Assembly (NCBI RefSeq): GCF_008329965.1
Contig: NZ_CP036150.1
Coordinates: forward strand, 2,232,001 to 2,296,000
DNA length: 64,000 nucleotides
Source of the DNA: Oceanispirochaeta crateris
GTDB lineage: Bacteria; Spirochaetota; Spirochaetia; DSM-2461
Direction of reading: 5' to 3'
In this document: positions 11,098 to 18,803 of the stretch, piece after piece
Position numbering within the stretch: the first letter of the stretch is position 1
Layout of the letters: every line of letters starts with the position of its first letter
The notes under the pieces: model-generated
Seen by the model: only the letters and a program-made list of their open reading frames with translations
Told to the model about the DNA's origin: nothing
The model's database searches: none
Translations under genes and position numbers: made by a program

Positions 11098-12837
11098 ATG
11101 AGCTCATTCAAAATAAGAAAGGTAACAGATTCCTTTCACCCGTCCAATACTTATGCGATTGAACAGGTATTTGAGATTTTAAGGATTCATTTTCCCTCTG
11201 TGAAGGAGGATAAAATCAATGAAATCCTAGAACAAATGAAGGACCCTCTGAAGTATCAATTCTCCTCTACACTGTTTGTAGCAGAGGGGGGGCAGGCCAA
11301 TATAAAAGGATTTGCAATTCTCTTTTACATGCCTGACGCAAATTATTGCTTTTTAGATTATATCGCCGTAAAACCGGGAAGGATCTCCTCCGGTGTGGGT
11401 GGCGCAATCTATGAGAGGATCAGGGAAGAAGCTCAGCTGCTCAACACAGTTGGAATTTTTATGGAATGTCTACCTGATGATGAATCCCTTTGCAAAGATA
11501 AGAGCGAAATAAAGCAAAACAGAGCTCGGCTTGCCTTTTATGAACGTTACGGTGCACGTCCAATCATCAACACGAAATATGAAACCTGCGTCAACCCGGA
11601 GGATGACTGCCCGCCCTACCTTGTTTTTGATGATTTGGGTAACGACTATGATTTAACATCAAAGGTTGCTAAGAAAATTGTCAAAACGATATTGCAACGG
11701 AAATACCCGGTTTATTGTCCCGAAGAGTACATAAAAATGATTGTCTCCTCCATCAAGGATAATCCGGTCCAATTGCGGGAATACAAATACAGAATCAAGA
11801 ACAGATCCATAGAAAAGAATAAGGCTGTAAAAAATCATATTCCCCTCATCATTAATGATAAACATGAAATTCATCATATCAAGGAGAAAGGGTACATAGA
11901 ATCTCCAGTGAGGATCTCCAGTATCACCAAAGAAATCACCAAATTGGAAGCCTTTCAACTGCGACCATCAAGAGCCTATCCGGACAAATATATCTTGGAA
12001 GTGCACAATCCAAAATACTTCAACTACTTTAAAAGAGTATGCAGCACTTTTCCTGAAGGAAAATCTATCTATCCCTACGTATTTCCTGTCAGAAATGCGA
12101 CACGTCCTCCGGGTGACTTATCCGTTTTAGCAGGATACTATTGCATAGACACCTTTACCCCGCTGAATAAAAATGCATTTATTGCGGCACGTTCGGGGGT
12201 TAATTGCTCCTTAACCGGTGCAGAATTGCTACTGGAAGGATATCACACGGCCTATGCCTTAGTGAGACCTCCCGGTCATCATGCAGAACGGGATGTTTTC
12301 GGTGGGTTTTGTTATTTTAATAACTCCTCCATATCAGCCCATTTTTTATCTGAGTTCGGAAAAGTAGCCATACTCGATATCGATTATCATCATGGAAATG
12401 GGCACCAACAGATATTCTATTCACGAAAGGATGTTTTAACCGTTTCGATTCATGGCAATCCATCATTTGCATACCCCTATTTTACAGGCTTTACAGAAGA
12501 AACTGGTGAAGGCGAGGGTGAAGGATTTAACTTGAATCTTCCCCTAAAAGAAAACCTCACAGGTGCAGAATACCTGAAGGTCTTAATCAAAGCCCTGAAA
12601 AGGATAAAAGAGTACAAACCCGACTATCTGATTATCAGTCTGGGACTGGATATTGCCAAGGGAGATCCCACCGGGACATGGTCCCTGACCGCCAATGACT
12701 TCAAAAACAATGGCATAGAAATTGGAAAGCTAGCCTATCCTGTCCTGTTTGTGCAGGAAGGCGGATATTATAACAGAACACTAGGTATTAATGCCCGGAA
12801 CTTTTTTGAAGGCTTTTTATCTACAAGGGTAAAATAA
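11098..12837 (+). CDS. GNAT acetyltransferase-HDAC/acetylpolyamine amidohydrolase fusion
   Basis: 579 residues in two parts. Residues 1-165 form a GNAT domain (FLDYIAVKPGRISSGVGGAIYE as the acetyl-CoA loop). Residues 250-575 form a histone-deacetylase-family amidohydrolase of the acetylpolyamine type: PPGHHAE (His394, His395), DIDYHHGNG (zinc ligands Asp429 and His431), GLDIAKGDP (Asp518) and EGGYY (catalytic Tyr). All zinc and catalytic residues are present. The fusion of an acetyl-transferring and an acetyl-removing domain, and its place at the head of an ATP-grasp / aminomutase operon, suggest it processes an N-acetylated amine intermediate. Substrate unknown. Confidence 0.85.
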   Translation: MSSFKIRKVTDSFHPSNTYAIEQVFEILRIHFPSVKEDKINEILEQMKDPLKYQFSSTLFVAEGGQANIKGFAILFYMPDANYCFLDYIAVKPGRISSGVGGAIYERIREEAQLLNTVGIFMECLPDDESLCKDKSEIKQNRARLAFYERYGARPIINTKYETCVNPEDDCPPYLVFDDLGNDYDLTSKVAKKIVKTILQRKYPVYCPEEYIKMIVSSIKDNPVQLREYKYRIKNRSIEKNKAVKNHIPLIINDKHEIHHIKEKGYIESPVRISSITKEITKLEAFQLRPSRAYPDKYILEVHNPKYFNYFKRVCSTFPEGKSIYPYVFPVRNATRPPGDLSVLAGYYCIDTFTPLNKNAFIAARSGVNCSLTGAELLLEGYHTAYALVRPPGHHAERDVFGGFCYFNNSSISAHFLSEFGKVAILDIDYHHGNGHQQIFYSRKDVLTVSIHGNPSFAYPYFTGFTEETGEGEGEGFNLNLPLKENLTGAEYLKVLIKALKRIKEYKPDYLIISLGLDIAKGDPTGTWSLTANDFKNNGIEIGKLAYPVLFVQEGGYYNRTLGINARNFFEGFLSTRVK

Positions 12838-12838
12838 G

Positions 12839-13819
12839 ATGAAAATAGGACTCACTTATGATTCAAGGGCGGAATATCTCAAAGAGGGATATTCCATGGA
12901 AGAAACAGCAGAATTCGACAAAGAGAGTACCATTGAAGGGATAGAGCTGGCGATCCGAAATATCGGCTATGAAACTGAAAGGATTGGAAACTCGAACTCC
13001 CTGATGAGGCATTTGTTAACCGGCCGGCGCTGGGATTTAGTCTTCAACATTTCTGAAGGCCTCTACGGCGAAGGCCGGGAATCACTGGTACCTGCCCTGT
13101 TGGACAGCTTTAAAATTCCCTATGTATTTTCGGGCCCCGTAACACTGGGGATTTCCCTGAATAAAGCCTTTGCGAAACAAATCATCAGAGACAGCCATCT
13201 CAACACCCCCCCTTTCAGTGTTGTGACAAAGAGGGCAGATATTCCACTCGTAAAACTCGACTACCCCCTGTTTGTCAAACCGATTTCAGAGGGAACCGGC
13301 AAAGGAATTGATGCCAGATCCAAAATTAATAATGCCACAGAACTTGAGGACGTCTGCTCCTCTCTCCTCCCAAAATTCAATCAAGCAGTTCTGGTTGAGG
13401 AGTATCTGCCGGGAAGAGAATTTACTGTTGGTGTCCTTAAAACTGGGGACGATGCCTACGTACCAGGAGCGATGGAGATTGTCTATAAGAATAGTTCAAA
13501 CAACATTTATTCCTATGAGAATAAAGAGAACTATGAGGAGATAGTGGACTATACTTCCGTAGAGGGAGATCTCTTAAAAGAGTGTGAAGAACTGGCTCTC
13601 AAGGTGTGGAAGGCTTTAAACTGTTTTGACGGGGGGCGTGTTGATATGAAGATCGACAAATCGGGGAAAATGAGTTTTATAGAGGTGAACCCACTGGCCG
13701 GTCTGAATCCAGAAACTTCGGATCTACCTATTTTATGCAGACTCAACAACATGGACTACCAGAAAATCATTGAAGAGATTCTTGATTCAGCCATAAAAAG
13801 AAATTTTACTCATGATTAA
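12839..13819 (+). CDS. ATP-grasp ligase, D-Ala-D-Ala-ligase-like (first copy)
   Basis: 326 residues, starting one base after the stop of the fusion gene. Ddl-like layout: N-terminal domain with FNISEGLYGEGRES, the ATP-binding lysine in FVKPISEGTGKGI (about 145-157), VLVEEYLPGREFTVGV, and the metal-binding GGRVDMKID...FIEVNPLAGL near 260-285. Such enzymes form an amide or peptide bond through an acyl-phosphate. A true cell-wall Ddl is unlikely: two divergent copies sit side by side with an aminomutase. I infer ligation of an amino acid (perhaps beta-lysine) to an acceptor. Confidence 0.82.
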   Translation: MKIGLTYDSRAEYLKEGYSMEETAEFDKESTIEGIELAIRNIGYETERIGNSNSLMRHLLTGRRWDLVFNISEGLYGEGRESLVPALLDSFKIPYVFSGPVTLGISLNKAFAKQIIRDSHLNTPPFSVVTKRADIPLVKLDYPLFVKPISEGTGKGIDARSKINNATELEDVCSSLLPKFNQAVLVEEYLPGREFTVGVLKTGDDAYVPGAMEIVYKNSSNNIYSYENKENYEEIVDYTSVEGDLLKECEELALKVWKALNCFDGGRVDMKIDKSGKMSFIEVNPLAGLNPETSDLPILCRLNNMDYQKIIEEILDSAIKRNFTHD

Positions 13820-14774
13820 AGTCGTGATTCTTCATAACCAAATTGAGAACCATTCAATCGATGAGTTGGATGTGCTGGCACAACAAGATCTTGTCATGAA
13901 AGCCTGTATTAACTTAGGGTATGAAACGACAACAATGACCATCGGAGATGATCTGAAAAATGATCTAATCCGGGTAAAAAGTTCAGCCCCCGATATAGTT
14001 TTCAACCTCACAGAAGCCACCTGGGGATATGGTGAATTAATCTATATGGCTCCTGCTGTTCTGAATGCATTTAAAATATCCTACACAGGGGTTCCCCTGG
14101 ATGCTCTTTTCATAACGACCAATAAAGTTCTGGCAAAAGAATTGATGCTGCGGGAAGGGCTGCCAACGGCTCCCTTCTTTAAGATAAACGAGACCTCCTT
14201 ACTTGATCCCCTGAAGAAATATATTGTGAAACCCATATGGGAAGAAGCCTCTGTCGGAATTAAGGAGGACTTAATATTTACTCCTTCAGAAACAGAGAAA
14301 ATGATGAAAATACAGTCTTTATCTGATTCTCATTTTTTCATTGAAGAATTTATTGACGGCAGAGAGATCAATATTAGCATGCTTGCTGGATCCGACGGTC
14401 CGGAAATTCTGCCTCCCGCGGAAATCATCTTTTCTGACTATTTCAAAGACAAACCCAAAATAGTGGGTTATAAAGCCAAATGGGATGAGGACAGTGAAGA
14501 GTATAAACAAACCAACAGGAAATTTGGAACTCTTGAGGATGACCCCACCATAAAGGCCTCCCTGAATGAGATTTGTATGAAGTGTTGGAAAGTCTTTAAT
14601 CTGCATGGCTATATCCGCATTGATGTAAGACTGGATAATGGGGGAGATCCCTATATTTTAGAGATTAATGGGAACCCCTGCATATCTCCGGACAGCGGTT
14701 TTATGGCCGCTGCTGATCGAGCCTGTTATTCAAGAGAAACTGTAGTGGAAAGAATCCTAAAGGACGCAAATTAA
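13812..14774 (+). CDS. ATP-grasp ligase, D-Ala-D-Ala-ligase-like (second copy)
   Basis: 320 residues; overlaps the first ligase gene by 8 bp. It has FNLTEATWGYGEL, the ATP lysine in IVKPIWEEASVGI, FFIEEFIDGREINIS and YIRIDVRLD...ILEINGNPCISPDSG as the metal-binding end. It is only distantly similar to its neighbour, so substrates probably differ. Two tandem ligases suggest two successive condensations (inference). A WGYGE signature near residue 70, equivalent to LYGEG in copy one, marks both as one subfamily. Confidence 0.82.
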   Translation: MIKVVILHNQIENHSIDELDVLAQQDLVMKACINLGYETTTMTIGDDLKNDLIRVKSSAPDIVFNLTEATWGYGELIYMAPAVLNAFKISYTGVPLDALFITTNKVLAKELMLREGLPTAPFFKINETSLLDPLKKYIVKPIWEEASVGIKEDLIFTPSETEKMMKIQSLSDSHFFIEEFIDGREINISMLAGSDGPEILPPAEIIFSDYFKDKPKIVGYKAKWDEDSEEYKQTNRKFGTLEDDPTIKASLNEICMKCWKVFNLHGYIRIDVRLDNGGDPYILEINGNPCISPDSGFMAAADRACYSRETVVERILKDAN

Positions 14775-14777
14775 CAA

Positions 14778-15260
14778 GTGATGAAATACAGAACAAGTTT
14801 GAAAAAATCTGATATCCCCTCTATGAAGGAAATCCTCGTATCAAGCGGATTTTTCTATGAGACAGAAGTTGAAATAGCTCTGGAACTGGCCCTAGAGAAC
14901 CTTCAGAAGGGTGCAGAAAGAAGCGGATATTATTTTATTCTAGCAGAGGAATTAGAAAAGCCCTTAGGATTCGCTTGCTTCGGTCCCGTCCCTGGAACGC
15001 AAAGTAGCTATGACTTATATTGGATTGCTGTTCATAAATCGGAAAGAGGGAAAGGAATTGGCACGATTCTCATGAATAAGACACGAGAAACAATAAAGAA
15101 ACAGGGAGGACAGAATATCTGGATTGAAACTTCTTCCCGTCCCCTTTATGCGCCTACACGCCAATTTTATCGGAACTATGGCTGCAAACAAGTGGCTGAG
15201 ATTAATGAATTCTATGGAGAAAAAGATAATAAAATAATTTTTGGAATAAAAAGTTCTTAA
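14778..15260 (+). CDS. GNAT-family N-acetyltransferase
   Basis: 160 residues, 3 bp after the second ligase. The acetyl-CoA loop is clear (YWIAVHKSERGKGIGTILM), followed by IWIETSSRPLYAPTRQFYRNYGC, typical of small-molecule GNATs. Shorter than AblB, the beta-lysine N6-acetyltransferase, which it might functionally replace here. It probably acetylates the amine made or used by this operon. Weak ribosome site, so probably coupled to the upstream gene. Confidence 0.82.
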   Translation: MMKYRTSLKKSDIPSMKEILVSSGFFYETEVEIALELALENLQKGAERSGYYFILAEELEKPLGFACFGPVPGTQSSYDLYWIAVHKSERGKGIGTILMNKTRETIKKQGGQNIWIETSSRPLYAPTRQFYRNYGCKQVAEINEFYGEKDNKIIFGIKSS

Positions 15261-15366
15261 TTTTACTCTTATGATTCTCCTGAATCTATTATTGATTCCA
15301 GATATTGGCTTTAAGAGCAATGCATGAGAAATATTTTAATATTGTGTTCAGAATAAAGGATAAAAA

Positions 15367-16638
15367 ATGAAAAAGGAACTTAAAGAGAATCAGAATGACA
15401 GTGACCCTCCCTCTGCTATAGAGGAACACAAAGAGGAGACGATCCCCTTAACGACTGTGGCTGAAGAAAAACCCTTTGTTAAATCTGAAATTAAAACATC
15501 AGATTTTAATATTATTAGCAAAGAGACAGAAGATTTCAGGGCTAGGTTTTTCCCCCAGGCAAGTGAAAAACAGTGGAATAGCTGGAGATGGCAAATTCAA
15601 AATAGCTATACCCAATTTAACAAACTATCCGAGGTCATCGATGTAAAAAATATTGATGACCTTGCATTTTTATCCAAATCAAGAAAACTCCCCCTGCGGA
15701 TTACCCCCTATTATGCCAGTTTACTGGATAAACAGGGTTCTGATTCTCCCATTGCCAAGACGGTTGTGCCGTCAAAGCTGGAATTGATTGTTTCTGAAGG
15801 AGAAGAGTCAGACCCTCTCCATGAAGATAGTATGTGCCCCGTACCCAACCTTGTTCACCGCTATCCAGACAGAACCCTCCTGCTTTCAACAGGTTTTTGT
15901 TCCGTCTATTGCAGGTATTGTACCCGGTCTCACATGGTCCTGAAGGATAAAAAACATTTTGGAACCAAAGCCTGGTCTGATTCCATTGATTATATAAGAA
16001 ACAACCCCGAAGTTAGGGATGTCATAATCTCCGGGGGAGATCCTCTCACAATCAATGACAAACACCTTGAATTGCTTGTGTCCTCTATCAGGGCGATTCC
16101 TCATGTTGAAATTATCAGAATAGGGACAAAGGTCCCCATAGTTCTCCCCCAGCGTATCACAAAGAACCTGGTTAAGATGTTGAAAAAATACCATCCCTTA
16201 TATCTGAGTATTCATGTGACCCATCCGGATGAAATAACCCCGGAGGTAGCAGAAGCGGTGACACGTTTAGCCGATGCTGGAATTGTTCTTGGCAGCCAAA
16301 CTGTATTGCTCAAAGGTGTCAATGATAGTGTTGAAGTGATGAAGGAACTCATGCTGAAACTCTTGAAAATTCGTATAAGACCCTATTATATCTATCAATG
16401 CGATCCAATTCCGGGTTCTTCACACTTTAGAACCCCTGTCTCAAAAGGTTTGGAAATCATCCAGGGATTGAGAGGGTTTATCAGCGGTTATGCCATACCT
16501 CATTATGTCATTGATGCTCCCGGAGGCGGAGGAAAGATCCCACTCTTACCTGAGTATTATCAGGGACGAGAGGGAGATTATGTGCTGATTAAAAACTTTG
16601 AAGGCAAACAGTATAAGTATTATGATCCAATTTTATGA
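15367..16638 (+). CDS. Lysine 2,3-aminomutase-like radical SAM enzyme (KamA family)
   Basis: 423 residues. The radical SAM cluster motif is CSVYCRYC (Cys178, Cys182, Cys185). The PLP lysine is in DAPGGGGK (Lys390). The two lysine-recognising Asp residues known from clostridial LAM have counterparts in QCDPIPG (Asp346) and VIDAPG (Asp383), so L-lysine to L-beta-lysine is the likely reaction. It carries an acidic, probably disordered N-terminus (1-50). Length matches KamA/AblA, not the short EpmB, and no EpmA or EF-P gene is adjacent. It is 106 bp downstream of the GNAT in the same direction and likely part of that operon. Confidence 0.88.
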   Translation: MKKELKENQNDSDPPSAIEEHKEETIPLTTVAEEKPFVKSEIKTSDFNIISKETEDFRARFFPQASEKQWNSWRWQIQNSYTQFNKLSEVIDVKNIDDLAFLSKSRKLPLRITPYYASLLDKQGSDSPIAKTVVPSKLELIVSEGEESDPLHEDSMCPVPNLVHRYPDRTLLLSTGFCSVYCRYCTRSHMVLKDKKHFGTKAWSDSIDYIRNNPEVRDVIISGGDPLTINDKHLELLVSSIRAIPHVEIIRIGTKVPIVLPQRITKNLVKMLKKYHPLYLSIHVTHPDEITPEVAEAVTRLADAGIVLGSQTVLLKGVNDSVEVMKELMLKLLKIRIRPYYIYQCDPIPGSSHFRTPVSKGLEIIQGLRGFISGYAIPHYVIDAPGGGGKIPLLPEYYQGREGDYVLIKNFEGKQYKYYDPIL

Positions 16639-16681: not shown

Positions 16682-18061
16682 TTACCATTTGAGCCTGAAG
16701 TTCCTGTCATCGGGATAGCTATCCAGGGGCAGACTTCGGGCAAAACCGCTCATACGGTTCCCCGAGGCCATCAGAAGTTCCAACCCTCCGGATTGAAGTA
16801 TGGATGAGGGGAGATAGGCCTCCAGTCCCTGCTGCGCATAGAGGTTCACAAGAAAAAAATACTCTGCCATCAGGCGGGCGTCCTCCTCGGAGGCATCCTC
16901 CAGCAGGCGTTCATACCGGCCTGTGTAGGACCGGGCTATTCCAATATCTCTATTGTAATTCAGAATAGCTTGTTGGCCGTCACGGAGCATATTGTCTCTT
17001 AAATCGGCTGTGGAGATATAGAGTTCTTCATCATCCCAGCCAATGAGACGATAGGAGTGGGGATATATCTGGAGAGACCCTGTGGTCAACCCGTAAAAAG
17101 AGTTGTCTCCTCTCAGATACTCCTTAATATCACTCTTGTGTATATGACCCGATAAACCGATTTTCACTCCATGATCCATCAGGAGATTCAGCATCCTGTT
17201 CTCATCATTGACCATAAAGTTGCTCAAATCGAGACCAATTTCATAGTGCCTCAGCAGGTTATGATGAGACATCATGATGACACGTTTCCCCTCTGCCCTC
17301 TTGAGAGCCTCAAGAACAAAGTCATACTGTTCAGGATTAAAGCCGCCCCGGGCAACACTGTAACCCCAGTGATAGTTGTCCTGATAATAGGAGCTGTCCA
17401 GAGACAGGAGTAATACATCGTCCTCCAGAGCCACCAAATATGAAAGACTCGTAGGATCATTCAGAAGGGCTTCATTAAACCCGAAGTCTTCGTAAATCTC
17501 CCTGAATTCCTCAGGGGTCACACTAGGGACACTCTCGGTGCCCGAACCAACGATGCGAAAGGCTCTGGGATTATTGATGTCATGGTTTCCTGTGGTAATG
17601 AAGACATGAATTCCATCGTCTTCAAATCCTCCTAGAATGTCAGCCATCTCTTCATGTGTGGCTCTTGTTCCCAAAACAGAGAGGTCTCCTGAAAGAAGAA
17701 GAGTACTGACCCCTCGGCTGAGTAGATCAGCCTTAAGAATCTCCATCATTTCCGTAGTGTAGAGGACAGTCCTGCCCTCGTTATTCCGTGAGAACTCTTC
17801 AAAACCCGCAGAAGCTGGATCGTAGAGAGACCTTGCATAATGATGAACGTCTGAAACATGGGCGATCTTGGAGCGCCCTTTCAAAAACAGATCTTTTTCA
17901 CTGAGAGAAGAATACAGCTCATTATCTATATCCAACTCGGGATATTTCACAGGACTCTGTGCCTTTCCCAATGAGAATGGCCGGACCTCAGAAGATTGTC
18001 CGCAAGAGAGAAATATTAAAGGAAATCCCAGAAGAGCTGCAATTGTTATTTTTTTGATCAT
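16682..18061 (-). CDS. Lipoprotein calcineurin-like metallophosphoesterase
   Basis: 459 residues from the ATG at 18061. A signal peptide with lipobox LIFLSC (Cys about 20) means it is anchored at the cell surface or in the periplasm. The phosphoesterase motifs are complete: HVSDVHH, LLSGDLS, TTGNHDIN, MSHHN and GLSGHIH. The C-terminal 110 residues are helical and unassigned. The open frame continues 70 codons further upstream, but the signal peptide fixes the start. It is divergent from the pentapeptide-repeat gene. Substrate unknown. Confidence 0.85.
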   Translation of the reverse strand: MIKKITIAALLGFPLIFLSCGQSSEVRPFSLGKAQSPVKYPELDIDNELYSSLSEKDLFLKGRSKIAHVSDVHHYARSLYDPASAGFEEFSRNNEGRTVLYTTEMMEILKADLLSRGVSTLLLSGDLSVLGTRATHEEMADILGGFEDDGIHVFITTGNHDINNPRAFRIVGSGTESVPSVTPEEFREIYEDFGFNEALLNDPTSLSYLVALEDDVLLLSLDSSYYQDNYHWGYSVARGGFNPEQYDFVLEALKRAEGKRVIMMSHHNLLRHYEIGLDLSNFMVNDENRMLNLLMDHGVKIGLSGHIHKSDIKEYLRGDNSFYGLTTGSLQIYPHSYRLIGWDDEELYISTADLRDNMLRDGQQAILNYNRDIGIARSYTGRYERLLEDASEEDARLMAEYFFLVNLYAQQGLEAYLPSSILQSGGLELLMASGNRMSGFARSLPLDSYPDDRNFRLKW

Positions 18062-18209
18062 ATATGAAGGAAGTTTACCATGATTGGACAGATCATTAAA
18101 AGCAGTCGAACTGTTGTGCAGGAATCCTAACCGGCCACAGCCCATCAGTAACCCCTTTCCAACCACTATATTGAACAATACAAATCGCGTGTATACAATC
18201 CTGAGAACG

Positions 18210-18803
18210 ATGCAGAACCTCAATGACCCTGACATGGAAGACTGGGAGGATGAATTCTTTGAGAATATCATCCTGACCCATAGTGATCTCTCCGGAAAGA
18301 CCTTCCAGGACTGTCAGTTTAAATCCTGCCGCATCAGCGACAGTCTCCTCAGGGGGAGCAGTTTTAGAAACTGCCTGTTTGAAGAGTGCGAACTGACTCT
18401 TCTAAAAGTAGACAATGCCGGATTCAGCAATTGCCAGTTTACGGAGTCTATGCTGCAGGGAATCAACTTTTCGGAGTGTAACACCCCCCTATTCTACCCG
18501 GATTTTGAGAAGTGCGAGATCCGTCACTGCTTTTTCAGCAACATGGATCTTAAAAAGAAAGTCTTTAGGGATTCCAAATTCCAGGACTGTGAGTTTTTCA
18601 GAATTGATTTCAGAGAGGCTGATTTTTCGAGAACGGCATTCAGCGAGACTCCCTTCAGTGAATGCGACCTGAGAAAAGCCAACTTTACCGAAGCCAGAGG
18701 TTACACCATCCAACCAGAGCAAAACAAACTCAGGGGGGCCGTCTTCAGCTACCCCGATGTGACCGCACTATTGGCCCCCCTGGGGATTGTGATCAAGGAT
18801 TAA
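18210..18803 (+). CDS. Pentapeptide-repeat protein
   Basis: 197 residues from the ATG at 18210 (a longer frame from 18084 overlaps the divergent gene's upstream region). The body is a series of A(D/N)Lxx/xFxxC repeats such as FQDCQFKSC, SFRNCLFEEC, FSNCQFTES and ADFSRTAFSE, forming a right-handed quadrilateral beta helix. It is rich in Cys at the repeat centre. Some of these proteins mimic DNA and bind gyrase, but nothing here shows that. Confidence 0.8.
   Translation: MQNLNDPDMEDWEDEFFENIILTHSDLSGKTFQDCQFKSCRISDSLLRGSSFRNCLFEECELTLLKVDNAGFSNCQFTESMLQGINFSECNTPLFYPDFEKCEIRHCFFSNMDLKKKVFRDSKFQDCEFFRIDFREADFSRTAFSETPFSECDLRKANFTEARGYTIQPEQNKLRGAVFSYPDVTALLAPLGIVIKD

Follow-up and report, generated by a model that had tools for sequence, protein, structure and literature searches.

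What does a gene cluster make when it places a lysine 2,3-aminomutase beside two ligases of the D-Ala-D-Ala ligase (Ddl) type? This question is raised by a locus of Oceanispirochaeta crateris (contig NZ_CP036150.1), in which five open reading frames on the + strand span positions 11098-16638 of the window, the 64,000-nt stretch of DNA that was analysed. In order, they encode a fusion of a GNAT-like domain with an HDAC-family deacetylase, two ATP-grasp ligases (here LIG1 and LIG2), a GNAT N-acetyltransferase and a KamA-family radical SAM enzyme. The spacings of 1, -8, 3 and then 106 bp agree with those given by an earlier description made from the DNA letters (the sequence-only reading), which proposed that the genes act together on beta-lysine. 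Our analysis indicates that the cluster enzymes probably make, by a cytosolic pathway, a small peptide or amide that is N-acetylated and contains beta-lysine.

Conservation of the gene neighbourhood

We scanned public genomes with a LIG1 profile, which gave at least 523 confirmed stretches. The best 80 loci were kept, and the gene families at these loci were tallied by tblastn. The loci come from Bacteroidota, Desulfobacterota and other delta-type lineages, Acidobacteriota, Aminicenantes and others. LIG2 adjoins LIG1 in 76 of the 80, and KamA, LIG1, LIG2 and the GNAT occur together in 53; LIG1 also adjoins KamA in most relatives. All five families are present at eight loci, in the orders KamA-fusion-LIG1-LIG2-GNAT and KamA-LIG1-LIG2-fusion-GNAT, compared with the window, where KamA is last. 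Thus, membership is kept while gene order changes, as expected of functional linkage.

Additionally, we compared 198 genomes from the class to which the window belongs, using Fisher tests that ignore shared ancestry and are descriptive. LIG1 was found in 27 of these genomes and LIG2 in 24, with both in 21 (5e-20). A KamA in the same intermediate score band as that of the window is carried by 24 of the 27 LIG1 genomes (2e-18). The full-length fusion occurs in seven genomes, all seven of which have LIG2 and six of which have LIG1.

The cluster also divides into modules. Several class genomes have KamA-LIG1 without LIG2 beside it and a LIG2-GNAT pair elsewhere in the same genome. KamA is missing at 10 of the 80 loci, and eight of those ten genomes carry KamA elsewhere. 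In three of the eight (G198-G200) the KamA away from LIG1 adjoins KamC and KamD, which are lysine-fermentation genes, so beta-lysine would still be supplied. In one class genome KamA and Ddl-type ATP-grasp domains are parts of a single 702-residue protein (L062:7716-9824). Because of the split modules, the KamA genes elsewhere in the genome and this fusion, beta-lysine is the likely substrate of LIG1 and the GNAT the likely partner of LIG2.

The grouping is far beyond chance, and functional coupling of the cluster genes is well supported. The coupling proposed by the sequence-only reading is borne out by the conserved neighbourhood, by co-occurrence of unlinked genes and by the KamA-ligase fusion. 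That reading would have been contradicted by a gene set found together in no other genome; the search for the five families across genomes instead found the neighbourhood conserved.

Table 1. Features of the aminomutase-ligase cluster, in window positions
Feature	Position	Strand	Basis
GNAT-like N-terminal domain fused to HDAC-family (acetylpolyamine-amidohydrolase-like) deacetylase	11098..12837	+	Pfam, solved relatives, site residues
LIG1, Ddl-type ATP-grasp ligase, likely KamA partner	12839..13819	+	PF07478, 102.7 bits; predicted model; neighbourhood
LIG2, second Ddl-type ATP-grasp ligase, likely GNAT partner	13812..14774	+	PF07478, 69.6 bits; predicted model; pairing
GNAT N-acetyltransferase, near PDB 2R7H, not AblB	14778..15260	+	Acetyltransf_1, 50 bits; 2R7H, 108 bits
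106-bp gap ahead of kamA	15261..15366		Promoter and terminator scans, no significant signal
KamA-family radical SAM lysine 2,3-aminomutase, clade apart from AblA, disordered-looking N-terminal tail	15367..16638	+	TIGR03820, 2A5H, quick tree

The enzymes and a proposed pathway

An alignment of the cluster KamA with 2A5H, a lysine 2,3-aminomutase, covers 365 residues and shows that the CxxxCxxC motif, the CTR arginine and the equivalents of D293, D330 and K337 are all retained. The radical-SAM, pyridoxal phosphate (PLP) and lysine-binding residues of KamA are invariant among 40 relatives. The alignment and this invariance confirm the earlier description of an intact enzyme with both lysine-binding Asp residues. 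The match to LAM_C covers only 57 of 127 positions. At 450.7 bits the protein scores below the curated cut-off of the AblA family TIGR03820 (525.4), and at 263 bits below that of the EpmB family TIGR03821 (369.3). It clears only the broad KamA-family cut-off, lying below those for AblA, arginine aminomutase, glutamate aminomutase and EpmB. In a quick tree, in which some rows are long-branched, the cluster KamAs separate from AblA and 2A5H as a clade with support of 98-99. We infer with good confidence that the cluster KamA makes beta-lysine. As a separate feature of this clade, the N-terminal tail preceding the catalytic core (window 15367-15560) carries an [ED]PP motif in 43 of 53 cluster KamAs versus none of 29 AblA-type proteins.

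LIG1 and LIG2 share with the Ddl family the fold and the metal- and phosphate-binding residues, with the active-site Arg, Asp, Glu and Asn retained. Ddl structures were the best fold matches for the predicted models of both proteins, which had a mean predicted local distance difference test (pLDDT) score of 92 for LIG1 and 94 for LIG2. Both differ from Ddl in falling far below every Ddl cut-off (the best LIG1 scores are 149.6 bits for a cut-off of 243 and 123.1 bits for one of 245.65; LIG2 scores lower). The N-terminal Ddl signature GGxSxEHxVS is absent from the LIG1 and LIG2 alignments, whereas the genome's own canonical Ddl, encoded elsewhere and above its cut-off, has it.

Among LIG1 relatives the active-site residues R267, D269, E282 and N284 are invariant, as is an acidic pair, E25 and D27, directly ahead of the first long helix. 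D295 is also invariant and stands where Ddl has Leu282, beside the acceptor carboxylate site as placed by sequence and secondary structure. The three acidic residues would suit a diamine substrate, though they are no proof of one. Action of LIG1 on beta-lysine is strongly indicated.

Paralogues of LIG1 occur at several loci. In three cases (L051:10210-12090, L055:5452-7298 and L048:6999-7595) KamA-LIG1 is followed by other genes and then by a LIG1 paralogue; the genes between encode proteins of about 400 residues (L051, L055) and a Cys-rich protein of about 200. The two intervening L055 genes had no match to any Pfam or NCBIfam family. At L059:1266-4911 a LIG1 paralogue comes after genes for a PLP enzyme resembling threonine synthase and a protein with weak similarity to MurL. 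Gene order is similar at L058, L060 and L061, with the families tested in L059 only.

The HDAC part of the fusion is clear (Pfam Hist_deacetyl, 246 bits), and its zinc and catalytic residues (HH, DxH, D and Y) are invariant across 15 fusions. The nearest solved proteins are acetylpolyamine amidohydrolases, which share the domain sequence and the zinc site; the cluster enzyme differs in its fused GNAT-like domain and in clustering with ligases. The N-terminal part scores just under the Pfam cut-offs of two GNAT profiles (23.6 against 27 and 19.9 against 20.7 bits), and no solved relative was found for this half. Of the families named in the sequence-only reading, the HDAC, both Ddl-type ATP-grasps, the GNAT and KamA are supported by profiles, and the GNAT-like part of the fusion matches its profiles weakly. 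The depositors of 2R7H, the solved relative of the separate GNAT, annotated it as a putative D-alanine N-acetyltransferase. The AblB family (TIGR03827) had no match in this protein or elsewhere in the genome.

In the proposed pathway, KamA would isomerise L-lysine to beta-lysine. LIG1 would convert a carboxylate to an acyl phosphate and then join beta-lysine to a partner amino acid, and LIG2 would form a second amide bond or synthesise the partner. The GNAT would acetylate an amine of the product or of an intermediate, while the accessory fusion would both add and remove acetyl groups, leaving the compound recyclable. Two successive ligations on beta-lysine with reversible acetylation would fit the parts; the order of steps, the identity of the partner and the site of acetylation are put forward more tentatively. 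The substrates, the product and its role, whether as osmolyte, store or secreted metabolite, are inferred. A first guess at that role would be an intracellular protective or storage solute.

A similar logic is found in the L-amino acid ligases and in N-acetylglutaminylglutamine amide synthesis, where peptide-bond formation by an ATP-grasp enzyme and acetylation by a GNAT yield a small peptide. The latter system is an analogue: the cluster proteins had no match to its NCBIfam families, and the supply of beta-lysine is new in the cluster.

Several points weigh against the proposed pathway. The 80 loci were picked for their similarity to LIG1, and the Fisher co-occurrence tests leave ancestry out of account. 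LIG1 occurs without a detected LIG2 in 6 of the 27 class genomes. The fusion is absent near the cluster in many lineages; therefore, the pathway can do without acetyl turnover. Ddl-type ligases vary in substrate, and the pocket changes (Leu282 to Asp, signature lost) name none. The substrates of all of the enzymes are assigned from sequence.

In another protein a LIG1-like ATP-grasp domain is joined to an S58 (DmpA/BapA-type) peptidase, and the next gene downstream encodes an HDAC (L063:6757-8913). At L064 and L066 a LIG1-like ATP-grasp gene again has an HDAC gene directly downstream, and the protein has the same length as at L063. S58 peptidases include beta-aminopeptidases. The S58-ligase fusion beside an HDAC gene would be in keeping with a compound that cells both build and dismantle.

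Alternative roles for the cluster

In a narrower form of the proposed pathway, the product would be strictly a compatible solute, made under salt or other stress and of greater complexity than the osmolyte N-epsilon-acetyl-beta-lysine. We consider this possible, if on balance doubtful. AblA and AblB, a lysine 2,3-aminomutase and a GNAT, make the known osmolyte N-epsilon-acetyl-beta-lysine, and ablA can be under the control of Na+ riboswitches (PMC9337991). The cluster likewise has an aminomutase and an acetyltransferase, the latter not AblB, and it differs in its two extra ATP-grasp ligases. Membership in the AblA/AblB system was rejected on the sub-cut-off KamA score, the separate KamA clade and the lack of an AblB match. 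The window and 18 related loci were searched for Na+, cyclic di-AMP and other Rfam riboswitches and none was detected, so the analogy with acetyl-beta-lysine is what remains to support an osmolyte. Additionally, record titles place many of the hosts in freshwater, groundwater or fen samples, which argues against this role.

Export of the product, as a peptide-like natural product, a signal or a metallophore, is unlikely. A major facilitator superfamily (MFS) transporter with HEAT repeats does follow KamA-LIG1 at six loci, all in one family of the class (for example L036:6991-9216), but across phyla the cluster has no transporter as a recurring neighbour. The conserved set is also small, unlike most secondary-metabolite clusters.

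Less likely still is a role in amine or lysine turnover, in which the ligases would conjugate polyamines or lysine derivatives in order to dispose of them, with the HDAC domain acting as an acetylpolyamine amidohydrolase. This would be consistent with acetylpolyamine amidohydrolases being the solved proteins nearest to the HDAC domain, with beta-lysine coming from lysine fermentation in three genomes, and with the related ligase-S58 peptidase fusion that has an HDAC gene for a neighbour. The dedicated KamA clade, linked as it is to LIG1, points to synthesis instead, and no other amine-catabolic gene recurs near the cluster.

Finally, it is very improbable that KamA serves beta-lysylation of EF-P and the ligases peptidoglycan: EpmB and Ddl do belong to the KamA and Ddl families, and EpmB, as a KamA-type enzyme, supplies beta-lysine for attachment, but in the EpmB/EpmA system the attachment is by a lysyl-tRNA-synthetase-like enzyme, the EpmB score of the cluster KamA is too low (263 against 369), and elsewhere in this genome EF-P adjoins an EpmA-like gene, a second KamA lies beside a NUDIX gene (L069:7275-8887) apart from that pair, and the canonical Ddl is encoded. 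The sequence-only reading had named action on EF-P or D-Ala as an outcome contrary to its proposal; this was not seen, EF-P modification and D-Ala-D-Ala ligation having separate genes, and both roles were rejected on those genes and the scores.

Origin, surroundings and meaning

The window's copy of the cluster was probably acquired horizontally. In the quick tree its KamA nests among Bacteroidota copies. One Saccharicrinis record matches this KamA at 81% identity and the window's LIG1 at 76%, compared with at most 54% for LIG1 in the sampled class genomes. In base composition the cluster does not stand out from the rest of the window, so the argument for transfer draws on the tree and the identities only.

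Promoter matches equalled those in shuffled sequences, and the terminator scan gave 11 matches, slightly above the 6.8 (standard deviation 3.2) of shuffles; neither gave a significant signal in the gap before kamA. A PADLOC search for a defence system returned no match. On the - strand at 16682-18271 of the window lies a gene for a calcineurin-like phosphoesterase, which weakly matches an anti-phage phosphoesterase model (47 bits against a cut-off of 420).

The sequence-only reading knew of no described pathway with this gene set. Likewise, our search of the open-access literature found no paper that describes the set or that relevantly combines an aminomutase with an ATP-grasp enzyme. A 2009 amidoligase survey by Iyer and colleagues might cover such neighbourhoods. 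The enzyme families are known and their combination is conserved, and a described product was not found.

The ligase family apparently occurs at hundreds of loci. We tentatively suggest, at lower confidence than the pathway itself, that a dedicated aminomutase clade and two dedicated ATP-grasp ligases make a widespread class of N-acetylated beta-lysine peptides, which would serve as a recyclable intracellular solute in several phyla. The four to five enzymes can be assayed with lysine, ATP and acetyl-CoA, which gives a direct route to a metabolite that would be common to several phyla. If this proposal is true, beta-lysine chemistry would extend past acetyl-beta-lysine, EF-P and the antibiotics made by non-ribosomal peptide synthetases (NRPS).

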